DNA from: Virgibacillus senegalensis
GTDB taxonomy: Bacteria > Bacillota > Bacilli > Bacillales > Amphibacillaceae
Reading direction: 5' to 3'
NCBI RefSeq assembly: GCF_000821245.2
Contig: NZ_LN611425.1
Location: 1,629,234 to 1,693,233 of the forward strand
Length of the DNA stretch: 64,000 nucleotides
Part shown: positions 4,480 to 26,104 of the stretch, in pieces
Position numbering within the stretch: the stretch's first letter is position 1
Layout of the letters: every line of letters starts with the position of its first letter
Position numbers and translations under genes: made by a program
The notes under the pieces: model-generated
Database searches by the model: none
What the model was told of the DNA's origin: nothing
What the model saw: only the letters and a program-made list of their open reading frames with translations

Positions 4480-6327
4480 TTAGGATTCTATTGTTATTTG
4501 ATAAGTACGCAGCCAGTGATCGATTTGTCCAAGATGAGCCAGTAGCTGCGGACCGGTCATTAGCTGACCAAACCACGGCGCCTCTATTTGCTTTCCTTCT
4601 GTTTGAATCAATTTTTCAATTGCTTTGCGATCAAACAGTTCGAACAACCTTGCATCCGAATCCCTGCTTATTTCCTCAAGCCAGGAAACCACTGCTTTCG
4701 TGTAGACGGGATGATGGGTTTTAGGATAAGGACTCTTTTTCCGATAGAGGATTTCCTCCGGCAACAATCCCTCTAATGCTTTTCTTAAAATCCCTTTCTC
4801 CCTTCCGTTATATGTCTTGATATCCCATGGGATATTCCAAACATATTCTACTAAACGATGATCACTGAACGGTACTCTTGCTTCGAAGCTTGCCCCCATA
4901 CTCATCCGATCTTTTCTATCCAGCAGCGTCGGCATGAACCAATGCATGTTCAGATAAAACATTTGCCTGCGCTGTTTTTCCAGGGGACTGTCCCCATCAA
5001 ACTGCGGAGTGCCATCTATCGTTTCCTGGTACCGTTTCAACATGTAATCCTGTAAGTCCAGTTTTTGTTTCCATTCCGTTGTAAGTAAAGAGCGGCGCAC
5101 TTCAGATGAACGAATCCACGGAAACCCTTCACGCGCTAAATCATCTTCACGGTAAAACCATGGATACCCACCGAAAATTTCGTCCGCACATTCTCCGGAC
5201 AATGCAACCGTCACTTCCTGCTTTGTCTGCCGGCAAAACCACAAAAGCGATGAATCGACATCAGCCATGCCGGGTAAATCACGCAGTTCCACCGCTTCCT
5301 TTAGCATAGCAGCCAATATCTCGTTATCCATCACAAATGTATGATGATTCGTAGAACTAAACGTGCTCATCTTTCCGATAAAGTTCTTATCGCTATTCGG
5401 CTGGAAAGAGCTTTGTTTAAAATATTTATCATTGTCCTGATAATCAATCGAAAAGGTCGAGAGAGGCCCTTTCCCATTAGACTTCAAATAGTTGGCAGCA
5501 ATAGCTGTTATCGCACTCGAATCTACTCCGCCTGACAAAAACGTACCAAGCGATACATCCGATACCAGCTGTCGTTCGACCGCATCAATCAACAAGGATC
5601 TGATTTTCTCTGCCGTTGTTTCCACATCGTCTTCATGCTGCCTGCTGACAACGTTCCAATAACGATGTGTTTGAAAACCATCCTGGTTAAAAACACCGAT
5701 ATGGGCAGCGGGGATTTCGTTGATTCCCTTGAACACCCCGTGTCCAGGAGTCCGGGAAGGACCAAGGGCAAGCACTTCGCTCAATCCTTCCTGATCCAGC
5801 ACCGGTTCTACTTCCTGATGGGCAAGTAATGCTTTAATCTCGGAAGCGAACAAAAGCCCTTCTCCGTGCTGTTTAAAAAATAAAGGCTTTACTCCAAGGC
5901 GGTCTCTTGCCATAAACAACTGCTGCTTTTCCGAATCCCAAATGGCAAAAGCAAAAATCCCGTTTAATTTTTCGACGCAAGCTTCTCTCCACTGCATGTA
6001 ACTCTTCAATAACACCTCTGTATCAGAATGAGAAGCAAAGCTCCAGCCTTTTTCAAGCAGTTCCAAACGCAAATCTTCCGTATTATAAAGTTCCCCATTG
6101 TAAACCATGATGAAGTTTGTTTCTCCAAGCCGGCACTCCATCGGCTGCTTTCCCCCTTCAGGGTCGACAACGATCAATCGTTGGTGGCCAAACGCAGCAT
6201 GCTTGGAAAACCATTCATTGTACTCATCGGGTCCCCGGTGCTGGATGGAACCAGCCATTTTGCGAATGGTGGTGATTTCTCCAGATAGGTCACGCTTAAA
6301 ATCTACCCAGCCTGTGATTCCACACAT
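4480..6327 (-). CDS. asnO: Asparagine synthase (glutamine-hydrolysing), AsnO type
   Basis: A 615-residue class II amidotransferase that makes asparagine from aspartate, ATP and glutamine. The start is fixed at 6327 because the N-terminal Cys of MCGITGWVDF must be the catalytic nucleophile after Met removal; a GTG four codons upstream would bury it. The glutaminase domain covers roughly residues 1-215 (GHQRLIVVDP, YNGELYN), and the synthetase domain has the pyrophosphate loop LSGGVDSSAI near residue 270 and ALSGECADEIFGGYPW near residue 370. Length and the neighbouring yisL match B. subtilis asnO, the sporulation-linked paralog of the three asparagine synthetases. Single gene with its own terminator. 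Enzyme class firm; the asnO rather than asnB label rests on length and context. Confidence 0.88.
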   Translation of the reverse strand: MCGITGWVDFKRDLSGEITTIRKMAGSIQHRGPDEYNEWFSKHAAFGHQRLIVVDPEGGKQPMECRLGETNFIMVYNGELYNTEDLRLELLEKGWSFASHSDTEVLLKSYMQWREACVEKLNGIFAFAIWDSEKQQLFMARDRLGVKPLFFKQHGEGLLFASEIKALLAHQEVEPVLDQEGLSEVLALGPSRTPGHGVFKGINEIPAAHIGVFNQDGFQTHRYWNVVSRQHEDDVETTAEKIRSLLIDAVERQLVSDVSLGTFLSGGVDSSAITAIAANYLKSNGKGPLSTFSIDYQDNDKYFKQSSFQPNSDKNFIGKMSTFSSTNHHTFVMDNEILAAMLKEAVELRDLPGMADVDSSLLWFCRQTKQEVTVALSGECADEIFGGYPWFYREDDLAREGFPWIRSSEVRRSLLTTEWKQKLDLQDYMLKRYQETIDGTPQFDGDSPLEKQRRQMFYLNMHWFMPTLLDRKDRMSMGASFEARVPFSDHRLVEYVWNIPWDIKTYNGREKGILRKALEGLLPEEILYRKKSPYPKTHHPVYTKAVVSWLEEISRDSDARLFELFDRKAIEKLIQTEGKQIEAPWFGQLMTGPQLLAHLGQIDHWLRTYQITIES

Positions 6328-20268: not shown

Positions 20269-20287
20269 TATTATAGAACATGTGTTC
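20269..20287 (+). promoter_or_regulatory. LexA (SOS) box downstream of a candidate -10, upstream of the ZIP-like gene
   Basis: GAACATGTGTTC at 20276-20287 matches the Bacillus LexA core GAACnnnnGTTC (consensus CGAACATATGTTCG). A TATTAT at 20269-20274 lies one base before it, the same layout as the boxes at 23195 and 24256. The start codon of the next gene is about 110 bases downstream, and no good -35 was found, so this is the weakest of the three. Confidence 0.5.
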
Positions 20288-20394
20288 TCTTCTTTCAATC
20301 CTATTGCCTGACAGCCAGACAAGCCTTGCTAACTGAATAGTTCCCTCTCAATCAGGGTATAACGAAGGGAGTCTGGAAAGGAGGCAGTTTTTAC

Positions 20395-21117
20395 ATGTTT
20401 TGGCTAAGTTTTTTGTTTGCTGTGTGCTTTGTTCTGATCCACCTGTTCTCTAAAAAATTGCTATTTTTAAATAATGTGCCGAGGAGCCGGTTTCTGTCTA
20501 TTGCAGGCGGCATTGCTGTTGCATATGTATTCATTCATTTATTGCCTGATTTAAATGAACACCAGGAGGCGGTCGAAGAAGCATTGTCCAAGGAGAGTCT
20601 CTCTTTTCTTGAATCTCATATTTACCTGATTGCCTTGGCGGGACTGACACTGTTTTATGGTCTGGAACGAATGGTGAAAGTGTCAAAACGGAAAAACAAT
20701 ACAAGGAAGGCCACTGCGGGGATATTTTGGATTCATATCGGTTCCTTCTTTTTTTATAATGCGATTATTGGCTATCTATTGATTACAGAGGAGTTTGCCA
20801 ATGTTACGGGAATGATTTTTTACTTTTTGGCGCTGGCCGTCCATTTTATCATTAACGATTTCAGTCTTCGTGAACGGCACGAAACGATTTATGACAAATA
20901 CGGCCGTTGGCTGTTGAGCGTGGCGGTTCTTATCGGCTGGGCCATAGGAAGTTTATATGAAGTCAAGCCGTTCATCGTTTCCTTTTTAACGGCTTTTCTT
21001 GCTGGCGGAGTGATTTTGAATATCTTGAAGGAAGAACTTCCGGAAGAAAGGCAAAGCAGCTTTGGCGCTTTTCTGGTCGGCGTTGCCGGCTACACGCTGC
21101 TGCTGCTAATCATTTGA
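20395..21117 (+). CDS. Polytopic membrane protein, weakly ZIP-transporter-like
   Basis: A 240-residue protein with seven or so predicted membrane helices. IAGGIAVAYVFIHLLPDLNE in helix 2 resembles the metal-binding helix of ZIP family transporters (pattern HLLPD), and the later AVHFIINDF and NILKEELPEER segments add conserved-looking polar residues in or near the membrane. I do not recognise an exact family. The start at 20395 has an AAAGGAGGCAG ribosome site. It is preceded by a LexA box (20276) and followed by its own terminator, so it may belong to the damage response. A role in divalent metal transport would be inference only. Confidence 0.6.
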   Translation: MFWLSFLFAVCFVLIHLFSKKLLFLNNVPRSRFLSIAGGIAVAYVFIHLLPDLNEHQEAVEEALSKESLSFLESHIYLIALAGLTLFYGLERMVKVSKRKNNTRKATAGIFWIHIGSFFFYNAIIGYLLITEEFANVTGMIFYFLALAVHFIINDFSLRERHETIYDKYGRWLLSVAVLIGWAIGSLYEVKPFIVSFLTAFLAGGVILNILKEELPEERQSSFGAFLVGVAGYTLLLLII

Positions 21118-21894: not shown

Positions 21895-22530
21895 CTACCC
21901 CCGTTCTCGGGTCTTTCTATGCAGACGCTGCTCCATGAATTTGCCGAATATCCAAAACAACAGGATACAAATTCCAACCACGATTGTCTTTATCGGATTT
22001 TGAGCGAAAGAAACGATACTGTCTCCCACATAGGCAATTGTAAATATCATCACTGTCTTCCCGAGCAGCACAGCAAGGACAAATTGCTGCAAGCTTATTT
22101 TGGACAGCCCTGCGACAATATTGATGACAGAAGACGGAGAAAACGGAAAGCACATCAGCAAAAACAATGGGCCGAACCCGTGCCGCTCCAGCCATCCCGT
22201 TACCCTTTCAACTTGCTTGTTTTTACGCAGCCAAATAAATAAGCGCTTATTCCCAAGCTTGCGGACTAGCATAAATACACATATTGCCCCCGCGCTGGCA
22301 CCAATCCACGAAAACAAAAAGCCTTCGAGCAACCCGTATGCCGCAGCATTGGCAAGCACGAAGACAACCAACGGCAAAAACGGCAAAAATGCCTCAATGA
22401 AAGGCAGTAAAATGCCAGGAAGCGGTCCGAGGGCCTCATAGCTTTTCAATAGCTGCAGCAGTAAGTCATCGAATCTATTACTTTCTATCAGTTCTCTTAA
22501 TTCATTGAGATCTATGTTAAATATGTACAA
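21895..22530 (-). CDS. yhjE: TVP38/TMEM64 family membrane protein YhjE
   Basis: A 211-residue membrane protein of the VTT/SNARE-associated (DedA-like) superfamily. The N-terminus is soluble (IDLNELRELIESNRFDDLL), then come about five hydrophobic segments with the family pattern FIEAFLPFLPL and GFGPLFLLMCFPFSPSSVIN. The best start is a TTG at 22530 preceded by CGAGGAGAATGG; a GTG eight codons upstream has no ribosome site. Members are thought to act as lipid scramblases or in phospholipid recycling, but the exact role of YhjE is not known. Transcribed upstream of the signal peptidase gene, as yhjE-sipV in B. subtilis. Confidence 0.85.
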   Translation of the reverse strand: MYIFNIDLNELRELIESNRFDDLLLQLLKSYEALGPLPGILLPFIEAFLPFLPLVVFVLANAAAYGLLEGFLFSWIGASAGAICVFMLVRKLGNKRLFIWLRKNKQVERVTGWLERHGFGPLFLLMCFPFSPSSVINIVAGLSKISLQQFVLAVLLGKTVMIFTIAYVGDSIVSFAQNPIKTIVVGICILLFWIFGKFMEQRLHRKTRERG

Positions 22531-23163: not shown

Positions 23164-23192
23164 TTGTAAAATTTCCGCGTTTTGCATATAAT
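23164..23192 (+). promoter_or_regulatory. SigA promoter of the WYL-like/YolD operon
   Basis: TTGTAA (23164-23169) and a perfect TATAAT (23187-23192) are separated by 17 bases. The LexA box at 23195 begins two bases after the -10. Confidence 0.75.
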
Positions 23193-23194
23193 AA

Positions 23195-23206
23195 GAACAA
23201 ACGTTC
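23195..23206 (+). promoter_or_regulatory. LexA (SOS) box of the WYL-like/YolD operon
   Basis: GAACAAACGTTC matches the LexA core GAACnnnnGTTC exactly. It covers the expected transcription start, so bound LexA would block initiation, as at other Bacillus SOS promoters. Confidence 0.78.
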
Positions 23207-23226
23207 CCTTTCGAGGAGTGAAACCA

Positions 23227-23450: not shown

Positions 23451-23783
23451 GTGCATGACAAACATCAAGATCGGGGAACCATCAAATGGACTTCCCTCAT
23501 GCTGCCCGAGCATGTGGAAATGCTCAACCAGTGGTATGAAGCAGAAAAAGATGTAGAAAAGCCGCTTCTCAGTAGTGACAAATTAGAGGAAATGCAGCGG
23601 ACGATCACGCAAGCAATTGAATACAAACAAAAGGTCTCGCTCTTCTTCTATGAAGCACAACGGATAGAGAGGATGGAAGGTTTCATAAAAGGAGCAGGAA
23701 TGGGAAAACTTGAGGTTGAAAACCGTGATGGGATTGAATTTCTTCCTTTTGAAGCCATCACCGATGTGGAATTGATCGAATGA
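23451..23783 (+). CDS. YolD-like protein
   Basis: The 110-residue product matches the YolD family: RDRGTIKWTSLMLPEHVEML in family form (here DRGTIKWTSLMLPEH), followed by LSSDKLEEMQ and a C-terminal beta-rich half ending in FLPFEAITDVELIE. It starts with GTG or ATG type codon two bases after the previous stop and shares its LexA-controlled promoter. In B. subtilis YolD and YqjX are encoded just upstream of or next to Y-family DNA polymerases (UvrX, YqjW) and are SOS induced. No polymerase gene is nearby here, so this copy is orphaned or works with a distant partner. Confidence 0.82.
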   Translation: MHDKHQDRGTIKWTSLMLPEHVEMLNQWYEAEKDVEKPLLSSDKLEEMQRTITQAIEYKQKVSLFFYEAQRIERMEGFIKGAGMGKLEVENRDGIEFLPFEAITDVELIE

Positions 23784-24248: not shown

Positions 24249-24267
24249 TATAATAGAACATACGTTC
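24249..24267 (+). promoter_or_regulatory. -10 element and LexA (SOS) box before the gene at 24284
   Basis: TATAAT at 24249-24254 is followed after one base by GAACATACGTTC (24256-24267), an exact match to the core GAACnnnnGTTC, with a further G (CG half of the consensus) on the right. The -35 is poor. The start codon is only 16 bases downstream of the box. Confidence 0.75.
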
Positions 24268-24283
24268 GTAAGGAGGAGTAATT

Positions 24284-24673
24284 GTGCGTTATCTCAGCGA
24301 AGAACAACTTTCTGTTGCTTCCCGTTTTCTATTTCTTTCAATGGCCATTGTAGTCATTCAAAAAGACCTGCAAAACATTCAAACAGGCAGCTTCAAAATC
24401 AAAGAACCCTTCACCGACCTGCTCGAAAAAATGGAGCAGGAAGCTGTAGCAGAACGCAGACAGCTTCGAAGCCGTATGGCGAAGGAAAAGCTACAGGTCG
24501 TTTCTTTAAACAAAAACGATTCCTTTTCCTCCTTTTTATTTATCTGCCAAGGGCGAGAAGAGAAAAGAAACTATTTTAATCCAGCCATTCGAAAAAAGGT
24601 GGAAAACATTCTGCGGGAGCTTATACAAAAGGCTCAGCAACAATATCAGCACTATTCTTCCACAAATACTTAA
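24284..24673 (+). CDS. SOS-controlled protein of unknown function, in the position of yhjD
   Basis: The 129-residue product starts at a GTG behind AAGGAGGA. It is mostly helical and basic, with no membrane segment: LSVASRFLFLSMAIVVIQKD near the N-terminus, a Lys/Glu/Arg-rich middle (EAVAERRQLRSRMAKEKLQ) and SFLFICQGREEKRNYF before a final helix. I do not recognise a domain. It lies between comK and yhjE, the position of B. subtilis yhjD, and has a LexA box at its promoter. Its last 53 bases overlap the 3' end of comK on the opposite strand and no terminator separates them. Confidence 0.65.
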   Translation: MRYLSEEQLSVASRFLFLSMAIVVIQKDLQNIQTGSFKIKEPFTDLLEKMEQEAVAERRQLRSRMAKEKLQVVSLNKNDSFSSFLFICQGREEKRNYFNPAIRKKVENILRELIQKAQQQYQHYSSTNT

Positions 24674-25130
24674 TCCGGTGATCCAGTAAGTAGCGAAATT
24701 GTGCAGTCCGTTGGATTTGATTCAATATAATACCGTGGGAAACTTGGAGTGTAATGGAAGCGCCATTCTTGAAGGCAATTTCAGTGGAATGATTGGCAGC
24801 CTTGCTGATTCTGTCGACATGTGAGTGGGCAATCCATGAGCAATGAGGGCTATTTGGGGAAGCTGTGGGGAAAAAATACATACCGCTCGAAGGGTCAATG
24901 GAAACAGGAACTTTGTGTGTAATATTGCAGATATCCTTGGTCCCTTCCTGCCTGCCTCGCAGGCTGCTCCCAAAGAACTTACAGGCAAGATCGATGATTT
25001 TGCTTGCCGGCTGTTTCACATGGATAATTTCCTCTTCTTCTAAAACTCTCGAAGAAAACCTGTTGCCTGTGTCCCCTCCAATGACAGCTAGTGTAAGTGG
25101 GGTAACTTCATAATCCGTTTGATATATCAT
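24621..25130 (-). CDS. comK: Competence transcription factor ComK, short C-terminus
   Basis: ComK is the master activator of DNA-uptake genes. The 169-residue product contains the family core: KIIDLACKFFGSSLRGRQEG, THKVPVSIDPSSGMYFFPT, CSWIAHSHV and FKNGASITLQVSHGIILNQ. It ends at HRIKYLWKNSADIVAEPFV, about 20 residues shorter than B. subtilis ComK (192), and lacks the FMLYPK tail that MecA binds for ClpCP degradation. The start at 25130 follows AAGGGATGG; an ATG three codons upstream overlaps it. A near-perfect inverted repeat at 25218-25237, upstream of the gene, may be an AT-box type site for ComK. The 3' end overlaps the convergent SOS gene by 53 bases. Confidence 0.9.
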   Translation of the reverse strand: MIYQTDYEVTPLTLAVIGGDTGNRFSSRVLEEEEIIHVKQPASKIIDLACKFFGSSLRGRQEGTKDICNITHKVPVSIDPSSGMYFFPTASPNSPHCSWIAHSHVDRISKAANHSTEIAFKNGASITLQVSHGIILNQIQRTAQFRYLLDHRIKYLWKNSADIVAEPFV

Positions 25131-25217
25131 AGAGTCCATCCCTTCATTGAATAGTTAGGCAGGTGAAAGGCCTACTCCTAATTTACCAGAAAATTGCATA
25201 AATTGGTAGAAATAATT

Positions 25218-25237
25218 GAATTTTTTGTAAAAAATTC
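25218..25237. promoter_or_regulatory. AT-rich inverted repeat upstream of comK
   Basis: GAATTTTTTG and TAAAAAATTC form a 20-base near-perfect palindrome (9 of 10 positions) about 90 bases upstream of comK. ComK boxes are AAAA-N5-TTTT, and AAAA-TTCAA-TTAT on the minus strand here is one mismatch away. Candidate operator only. Confidence 0.3.
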
Positions 25238-25242
25238 CTGCT

Positions 25243-25310
25243 ATTTGTCATGCATGTCATCTGTAAATTAAAGCGTTTCCAATCAAGCCGTCAGGTTTGC
25301 TATACTCTAC
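25243..25310 (+). promoter_or_regulatory. Promoter module copy 1 with cre-like site
   Basis: This module has an extended -10 (TTTGCTATACT, -10 hexamer 25301-25306) and a cre-like element TTAAAGCGTTTCCA, one mismatch from the CcpA consensus, about 26 bases upstream. It is a diverged copy of 25532-25599, with identical internal spacing. It reads toward a terminator only about 25 bases after the -10. Confidence 0.55.
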
Positions 25311-25326
25311 CTAGAAGCAAGAAGTA

Positions 25327-25392
25327 ATGGCGGGCACAGAACACCCTGCCAGGTTTTTTACTACGTGTAAAAAAGGAGCAATTGCCATGTAG
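25327..25392 (+). CDS. Possible 21-codon leader peptide (speculative)
   Basis: A small frame reads MAGTEHPARFFTTCKKGAIAM and stops with TAG. It lies just after promoter copy 1 and runs through the terminator stem at 25328-25361, an arrangement seen in attenuators. The ribosome site is weak (AAGAAG), and the frame may be accidental. Confidence 0.2.
   Translation: MAGTEHPARFFTTCKKGAIAM
25328..25361 (+). terminator. Terminator closely following promoter copy 1
   Basis: TGGC-GGG pairs with CCC-T-GCCA around the loop CACAGAACA, followed by GGTTTTTT. A transcript from 25301 would end here after roughly 50 bases. Confidence 0.6.
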
Positions 25393-25531
25393 AAAACCTT
25401 TATACATCTTTATTGTCAGTTTCTTTAAAGAAATATTCTCAAGGAAATTGGGTGATAAAATAACATTTCTAACCAGGTATTAAAAAGACTTTTCGGAATC
25501 ACGGAAATCTGCTTAGCAAAATAATACTGAA

Positions 25532-25599
25532 ATTTGTCACGCCCACTTCTTCAAAACGAAAACGCTTTAACACAGGAGTGCAGGTTTGCTATAATCTTT
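25532..25599 (+). promoter_or_regulatory. Promoter module copy 2 of the gene at 25643, with cre-like site
   Basis: TTAACA and a perfect TATAAT (25590-25595) are 17 bases apart, with an extended -10 TG. The cre-like CGAAAACGCTTTAACA is one mismatch from the CcpA consensus and overlaps the -35. The gene starts 48 bases after the -10, so this is its likely promoter. Confidence 0.65.
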
Positions 25600-25642
25600 A
25601 TATCAATAAGATACCATTCCTTTCTATAAAGGAGGAAACGCG

Positions 25643-26104
25643 ATGTGGAAAAAGAACAAAAAACCAAAAATTGATTCTCAGCAGAAACAACTCCCCGTTA
25701 GGCCGGTGAGCATTTCAGAGGTAAAAGATGCCATCCGGCGATACAGCGCCGAGCTCGCATCGGAAATACCGCTCCAAGTCATTATAAAGGAAGACCGGAC
25801 AATTGATTACCAGCTACTCGCTCCCTATTTAGAAGCAGAACCGGAACAGACTTACTACATGTCCCGTGAAACCTATGAAATTTTTGAAGAAAAAGATAAA
25901 CAGCTCGCCGAAGACCTGGATAAGGTTCAGCAAGCTGTTGACCATTACCGTGACCAAACAGGTAACCTTCCGATCATAGAAGGAGATCCTTACAGGAAGG
26001 TCAGTTACTTAAAATTAGAAAAGCTCGGATTATTATCCCGGCGTCCGGAACGTCCTTTCTTCATCACCGACGATGAAGATATGATCACCCACCGCCAGTC
26101 TTAA
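25643..26104 (+). CDS. Conserved Bacillaceae protein, possibly DUF3939
   Basis: A 153-residue soluble protein starting behind AAAGGAGGAAA. The first 25 residues are Lys/Gln-rich and probably disordered; the rest contains VSISEVKDAIRRYSAELASE, a Tyr/Glu-rich middle with a probable helix (EEKDKQLAEDLDKVQQAVDH) and NLPIIEGDPYRKVSYLKLEK, ending in a Asp/Glu-rich FFITDDEDMI segment. The layout recalls DUF3939 proteins, but I cannot confirm that. It is transcribed from the duplicated promoter module and its stop overlaps the convergent coiled-coil gene by four bases. Function unknown. Confidence 0.6.
   Translation: MWKKNKKPKIDSQQKQLPVRPVSISEVKDAIRRYSAELASEIPLQVIIKEDRTIDYQLLAPYLEAEPEQTYYMSRETYEIFEEKDKQLAEDLDKVQQAVDHYRDQTGNLPIIEGDPYRKVSYLKLEKLGLLSRRPERPFFITDDEDMITHRQS

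Follow-up and report, generated by a model that had tools for sequence, protein, structure and literature searches.

In Virgibacillus senegalensis, a yhjD-type gene preceded by a LexA-type box ends inside the coding sequence of comK on the opposite strand, and under SOS conditions its transcript is likely to cover much of comK in antisense. The window, by which we mean the whole stretch of 64,000 nucleotides that was analyzed, had already been the subject of a first-pass annotation proposing that these two genes overlap by 53 bases, and we confirmed that overlap at positions 24621 to 24673. The features of the locus, in window coordinates, are as follows:

23187 to 23207, plus strand: second SOS-type promoter, TATAAT followed by box AGAACAAACGTTCC (box at 23194 to 23207)
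23451 to 23783, plus strand: yolD, behind a small WYL-domain gene (Pfam YolD, E = 2.1e-18)
24249 to 24254, plus strand: TATAAT, the -10 element of the yhjD promoter, read from the sequence and kept in relatives
24255 to 24268, plus strand: LexA-type box AGAACATACGTTCG, directly after TATAAT, its core kept in relatives
24270 to 24276, plus strand: yhjD ribosome binding site AAGGAGG, from sequence inspection
24284 to 24673, plus strand: yhjD-type gene, a reading frame of 129 amino acids with a GTG start
24621 to 24673, both strands: tail-to-tail overlap of the yhjD and comK coding sequences, 53 bases
24621 to 25139, minus strand: comK, 172 amino acids (Pfam ComK, E = 3.9e-51)
24674 to 25352, plus strand: predicted yhjD read-through, antisense to comK and to the comK upstream region, given that no terminator candidate comes earlier
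25326 to 25359, plus strand: weak terminator candidate, the first that read-through from yhjD would meet (-9.3 kcal/mol, T tract from about 25352)

The annotation had bounded the gene pair at 24284 and 25130. The plus-strand start at 24284 is right, whereas the comK ATG on the minus strand lies at 25139, beyond that end. We named the plus-strand gene yhjD because its neighbors are sip (signal peptidase), a VTT-domain (yhjE-like) gene and comK. We take the B. subtilis genes of these names (yhjD, yhjE, sip) to be adjacent to one another, with yhjD, yhjE and sipV presumably located beyond yhjA. The closest protein relatives of YhjD are those of Sediminibacillus terrae and S. halophilus, at 93% identity. 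Between positions 22500 and 27000 there was no Rfam match at E 0.1, RNA folds of the overlap on either strand were no better than those of shuffled sequences, and no repeats were found within 24600 to 25660. The best ComK box found before comK was a half-box with one mismatch. A gene for a Mistic-family protein (PF11458; 23826 to 24143, minus strand) adjoins yhjD, and tblastn located this gene in 3 of the 80 loci of the main set described below, all of them from Sediminibacillus. To our knowledge, Mistic has been known from few bacilli.

A yhjD match was present in 52 of the 61 genomes searched, the strain's own included, and the locus was compared across two sets of relatives. The main set consists of the 80 best of 132 loci found, with some species represented by several strains. 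For the second set 50 loci were taken and one without a yhjD match was dropped, which left 37 loci from the same family and 12 from other families, genome G007 appearing twice. The proposal of a LexA box ahead of the gene at 24284 was borne out in this comparison: AGAACATACGTTCG abuts TATAAT, and the core GAACN4GTTC stands 15 to 30 bases before the yhjD start in 78 of the 80 main-set loci. The remaining two, both from Oceanobacillus, have one core mismatch each. In 77/78 loci the box is accompanied by a hexamer that matches TATAAT in five or six positions, and in the second set the core was found at 34/37 same-family and 9/12 other-family loci. Assuming equal base frequencies, chance alone would yield the core in about one of 470 stretches of 150 bases. 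Control upstream regions carried it at 0/59 sip, 0/78 comK, 0/33 DUF3939 and 3/80 VTT loci, and we infer that these three VTT boxes sit in the intergenic stretch common to VTT and yhjD. Boxes upstream of lcfA (7/38 loci) proved to be an artefact of hits running off the locus ends, and lcfA was dropped as a box control.

A genome-wide search with the pattern CGAACN4GTTCB returned 14 rows at 13 places, against 23 rows for the reversed control pattern. Because the control was the more frequent, the pattern alone is undecisive, and the LexA identity of the yhjD box is decided by its conservation across loci rather than by genome-wide occurrence. The 13 places include two boxes before lexA, and several others stand before no obvious gene. 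Another of the 13 is box CGAACATACGTTCT, which lies 20 bases before the start of a Y-family polymerase gene. The yhjD promoter resembles the LexA regulon of Bacillaceae in placing GAACN4GTTC beside the -10 element, as at lexA and at the Y-family polymerase gene; its box is of the same type as the lexA box of this genome and is conserved among yhjD orthologues. It differs in that yhjD is a predicted member, assigned by sequence and conservation; B. subtilis yhjD may itself figure on published LexA lists. Overall, yhjD is almost certainly under SOS control. This control would be independent of comK and serve yhjD itself, because the box core is kept in all 17 of the 17 main-set loci without a demonstrated comK overlap (comK distant, co-directional or not found).

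The second SOS-type promoter of the window drives the WYL-yolD pair on the same strand, 1 kb upstream of yhjD, and yolD forms a separate SOS-type unit 0.5 kb upstream of yhjD. A third exact GAACN4GTTC site, AGAACATGTGTTCT (20275 to 20288), stands 106 bases before the gene of a 240-residue protein (20395 to 21117) and marks either another SOS gene or a chance occurrence. The SOS-type Y-family polymerase gene (contig C6:1310630-1311797) contains an exact repeat at a spacing of 1154 that includes the LexA box, and one copy of the repeated gene opens only a 90-residue frame. Like the repeat in comEC, described below, it is either a duplication or a fault of the assembly.

The YhjD protein itself is unlike classified families. 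It matched no Pfam family at E 0.01 and no NCBIfam family at E 0.1, its best Pfam line (E 0.097) being taken as chance, and it matched PHROG 34234, a phage family of unknown function, at E 2.7e-4. Among PDB sequences the best match reached E 0.26. The structural model, built from 31 sequences, is confident (mean pLDDT 89.4) and comprises two helices, three strands and one helix, for which Foldseek returned no match in the PDB at E 0.001. No YolD domain was matched in the window protein at E 0.1, and YolD was absent from the eight Pfam families matched at E 0.01 by 50 YhjD alignment members, each of these families being matched by one or two members and taken as chance.

The genes that accompany yhjD are telling. 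Four plasmids were inspected (five records matched), and in three of them, all from Cytobacillus, a yhjD relative follows yolD with the box placed before yolD; the fourth, from Sporosarcina, has neither an adjacent yolD nor an exact box. Genome G007 carries two yhjD copies, one in a yolD-yhjD pair with a box and one behind lexA, and tblastn found a comK match in neither locus. A Paenibacillus phage encodes a distant yhjD relative with its own box (25% identical to a relative belonging to a different family). With a box shared by lexA and the Y-family polymerase gene, and a position behind yolD or lexA in some relatives, yhjD probably encodes, by association only, a helper of YolD/UvrX-type SOS lesion-bypass synthesis. 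The link to the YolD/YqjX subunits of UvrX/YqjW polymerases lies in the yolD-yhjD pairs of some relatives and in the SOS-type boxes common to both genes; in contrast to those subunits, no YolD match occurs in the window protein or in the other 49 alignment members. A Cohnella abietis protein named YhjD is described as the small subunit of a polymerase, its arm resembling that of YolD (PMC12926913); this protein is a possible homologue of the window YhjD, in which no arm of that kind was found.

Read across relatives, the yhjD/comK arrangement is old. In the main set 63 of 80 loci overlap comK, a gap separates the convergent genes in 14, and 1 is co-directional; comK was not found in the other 2, in one case owing to a contig end. 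The commonest overlap length is again 53 bases (29 of the 63). All the lengths are congruent modulo 3, so that the reading-frame relation is the same in all 63, as expected from descent from one origin. On a tree of 81 rows, made by a quick method with no bootstrap from columns that include yhjD and comK themselves, the overlap state changes three times: in a gapped Aquibacillus/Gracilibacillus/Paraliobacillus/Natronobacillus group, in Pontibacillus and in Thalassobacillus pellis. Second-set loci overlap in 23/37 same-family and 7/12 other-family cases, and four of these seven other-family overlaps span only 4 to 23 bases, with a frame relation that is not uniform. One genome from another family has a further minus-strand gene between yhjD and comK (locus 4998-6084); this gene, membrane-like and present in two similar copies, shares 14 bases with yhjD.

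Conservation of this kind has to be read with care. In the 30 loci with an exact 53-base overlap (the window locus and 29 from the main set), the yhjD stop faces codons for the conserved Arg-Ile-Lys/Arg of ComK, and the comK stop lies opposite codons for the conserved Glu-Leu-Ile/Met of YhjD. Point mutation could hardly part genes joined in this way without harming one of the two proteins. We read this as a coding lock, which would be sufficient to preserve the overlap even if it regulated nothing, and conservation of the overlap is weak evidence of regulation.

Transcript ends offer a separate line of evidence. We scanned the interval between 60 bases ahead of each stop and 120 bases behind it for hairpins of -9 kcal/mol or below with a T tract, an approach that detects intrinsic terminators and has Rho-dependent or RNase-made 3′ ends outside its reach. 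Neither of two scans, one of them for a hairpin plus U-tract, turned up an intrinsic plus-strand terminator close to 24673. The claimed lack of a terminator between yhjD and comK therefore held, the first candidate lying 679 bases past the yhjD stop, at about 25352 and some 210 bases past the comK start; for the 41-base stretch around it, 25 of 200 shuffles fold as well. Across the main set, a terminator at the yhjD end was present in 3/63 overlapping versus 8/14 gapped loci (Fisher p ~2e-5, and 4e-21 for the comparison with sip, related loci being treated as independent), and the contrast holds at thresholds of -8, -10 and -12. Positive controls gave a terminator at 50/59 sip and 35/39 lcfA ends. 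Same-family loci of the second set had one at 1/23 overlapping and 5/9 gapped yhjD ends; the other families gave 0/7 and 0/5, and thus no contrast between overlap and gap. At comK ends, terminators were present in 11/63 overlapping and 4/14 gapped loci. Terminators can be scarce where nothing overlaps, since DUF3939 ends (9/31), VTT ends (25/80, with sip next) and the gapped comK ends have few as well.

How far the antisense RNA would extend varies among loci. Among the 63 loci with an overlap, 3 have their first candidate on the yhjD strand close to the yhjD stop, 11 have it within comK, and 22 have it at or beyond the comK start (counted from 30 bases inside); the other 27 have none as far as 500 bases beyond that start. 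Some candidates beyond comK may belong to lcfA on the other strand. Because 14 of the 63 have a candidate before the comK start, the antisense may be partial in some loci. In the window, where no terminator comes earlier, the SOS transcript would span comK end to end, barring a 3′ end made by Rho or an RNase. For the comK transcript of the window, no candidate terminator was found over 700 bases, and this transcript would cross yhjD. The suggestion in the first-pass annotation that the yhjD transcript would extend antisense into comK is, as a prediction, well supported by the conserved box and by the absence of a terminator in 60 of 63 loci.

We propose that LexA represses yhjD and that LexA cleavage would free its transcription. 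With no intrinsic terminator at the end of the unit, RNA polymerase would continue through the overlap to make comK antisense RNA; this RNA, or polymerase collision, would leave less comK mRNA and less ComK, and SOS would hold competence down. LexA binding, transcript length and the effect on ComK are the parts that we infer. By analogy with B. subtilis, a lowering of competence by SOS is plausible. The whole explanation, from SOS through yhjD read-through and comK antisense RNA to lowered competence, stands at about an even chance, and a real fall of ComK under SOS is just as evenly poised; that selection has acted on an effect on ComK, rather than the overlap being an incidental lock, is doubtful. 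Elsewhere in the genome, comEC (contig C7:299995-302177) contains an exact direct repeat (300 bases reported) at a spacing of 1409 and presents two ComEC-domain reading frames, through either tandem duplication or an assembly fault. The duplication counts against the proposal in that it bears on the strain's ability to take up DNA, a presumed trait in this genus.

An alternative is that SOS serves YhjD only, that the overlap arose once and was locked in place, and that Rho or an RNase ends the RNA early, leaving comK unaffected. Stop codons facing conserved codons of the other gene in 30 loci, and the one frame relation of all 63 overlaps, are what such a history predicts, and the box is kept where the overlap is lacking and also occurs away from comK altogether (the plasmid yolD-yhjD pairs, the phage copy, the genome with yhjD behind lexA). 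The marked scarcity of terminators at the yhjD end (3/63 versus 8/14 gapped) argues against it, as does the finding that read-through antisense to comK matters in B. subtilis (PMC11633097), and we regard it as a tenable possibility rather than a probable one. The overlap might also act in reverse, comK mRNA running antisense through yhjD and holding the SOS gene down in competent cells, perhaps limiting error-prone synthesis during foreign DNA uptake. Terminators at just 11/63 overlapping comK ends, their absence within 700 bases in the window, and the comK read-through S367 antisense to yhxD in B. subtilis (PMC11633097) are consistent with this direction; however, strong comK expression occurs only during competence, and both directions may act together, so that we consider it improbable as the explanation. 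That the box is not a LexA site, with yhjD outside SOS control, is extremely improbable: a genome-wide pattern no commoner than its reversed control (14 versus 23 rows) would fit, but the fixed position beside the -10 element in 78/80 loci, the same box type at lexA and the same box at the yolD partners speak against it.

The proposed action of SOS on comK has a measured parallel. In B. subtilis, according to PMC11633097, the gene order is yhjA-yhxD-comK-yhzC. There yhxD is driven by SigB and converges on comK, and its read-through yields the comK antisense RNA S365. Induction of this antisense RNA alone brought transformation down to 4% and lowered ComK activity, with action in cis and less so in trans. 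The comK read-through S367 is in turn antisense to the stress gene yhxD, giving read-through both ways. The noncontiguous operon yhxD-S365(as-comK)-yhzC thus shares with the window a stress-controlled gene placed tail to tail with comK. It differs in its input (SigB there, LexA/SOS here) and in its gene (yhxD versus yhjD), and also at the junction, where a leaky bidirectional terminator separates the genes of B. subtilis and the window has a coding overlap with no terminator-like site near either stop. In addition, the antisense RNA and its effect were measured in B. subtilis (PMC11633097), whereas the window locus is described at the level of sequence, through its box, promoter, overlap, missing terminator and conservation. 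The main text of PMC11633097 makes no mention of SOS, yhjD, LexA, RecA or 'conserved'. In S. aureus, read-through from sbrB is reported to be antisense to lexA (PMC8745188); read-through antisense there too touches a stress regulator, but lexA is the target, while here a LexA-controlled gene is the source. We found no published description of an SOS-driven comK antisense RNA in the open-licence literature, outside which most subscription journals lie.

A broader history is conceivable, if rather unlikely: the yhjD/comK overlap would be an ancient switch, shared by Bacillaceae with related families and acting both ways, in which SOS (lesion-bypass mutagenesis) and ComK (DNA uptake) shut each other off by means of overlapping transcripts, and the place opposite comK would be a socket for lineage-specific stress controllers, the B. 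subtilis SigB gene yhxD being a later insertion after SOS.

The action of DNA damage on competence in bacilli that possess both LexA and ComK seems little explored. On the proposed reading, in which SOS drives yhjD read-through into comK antisense RNA, the locus would be a direct wire from SOS to competence that dozens of species have retained. Relatives from Aquibacillus, Gracilibacillus, Paraliobacillus and Pontibacillus in which comK is free of a yhjD overlap would serve as natural controls. YhjD, unclassified and with no similar solved fold, is a likely component of SOS lesion tolerance. If the proposal is true, the locus would be the SOS-driven counterpart of the SigB-driven comK antisense RNA, a known mechanism with another input.
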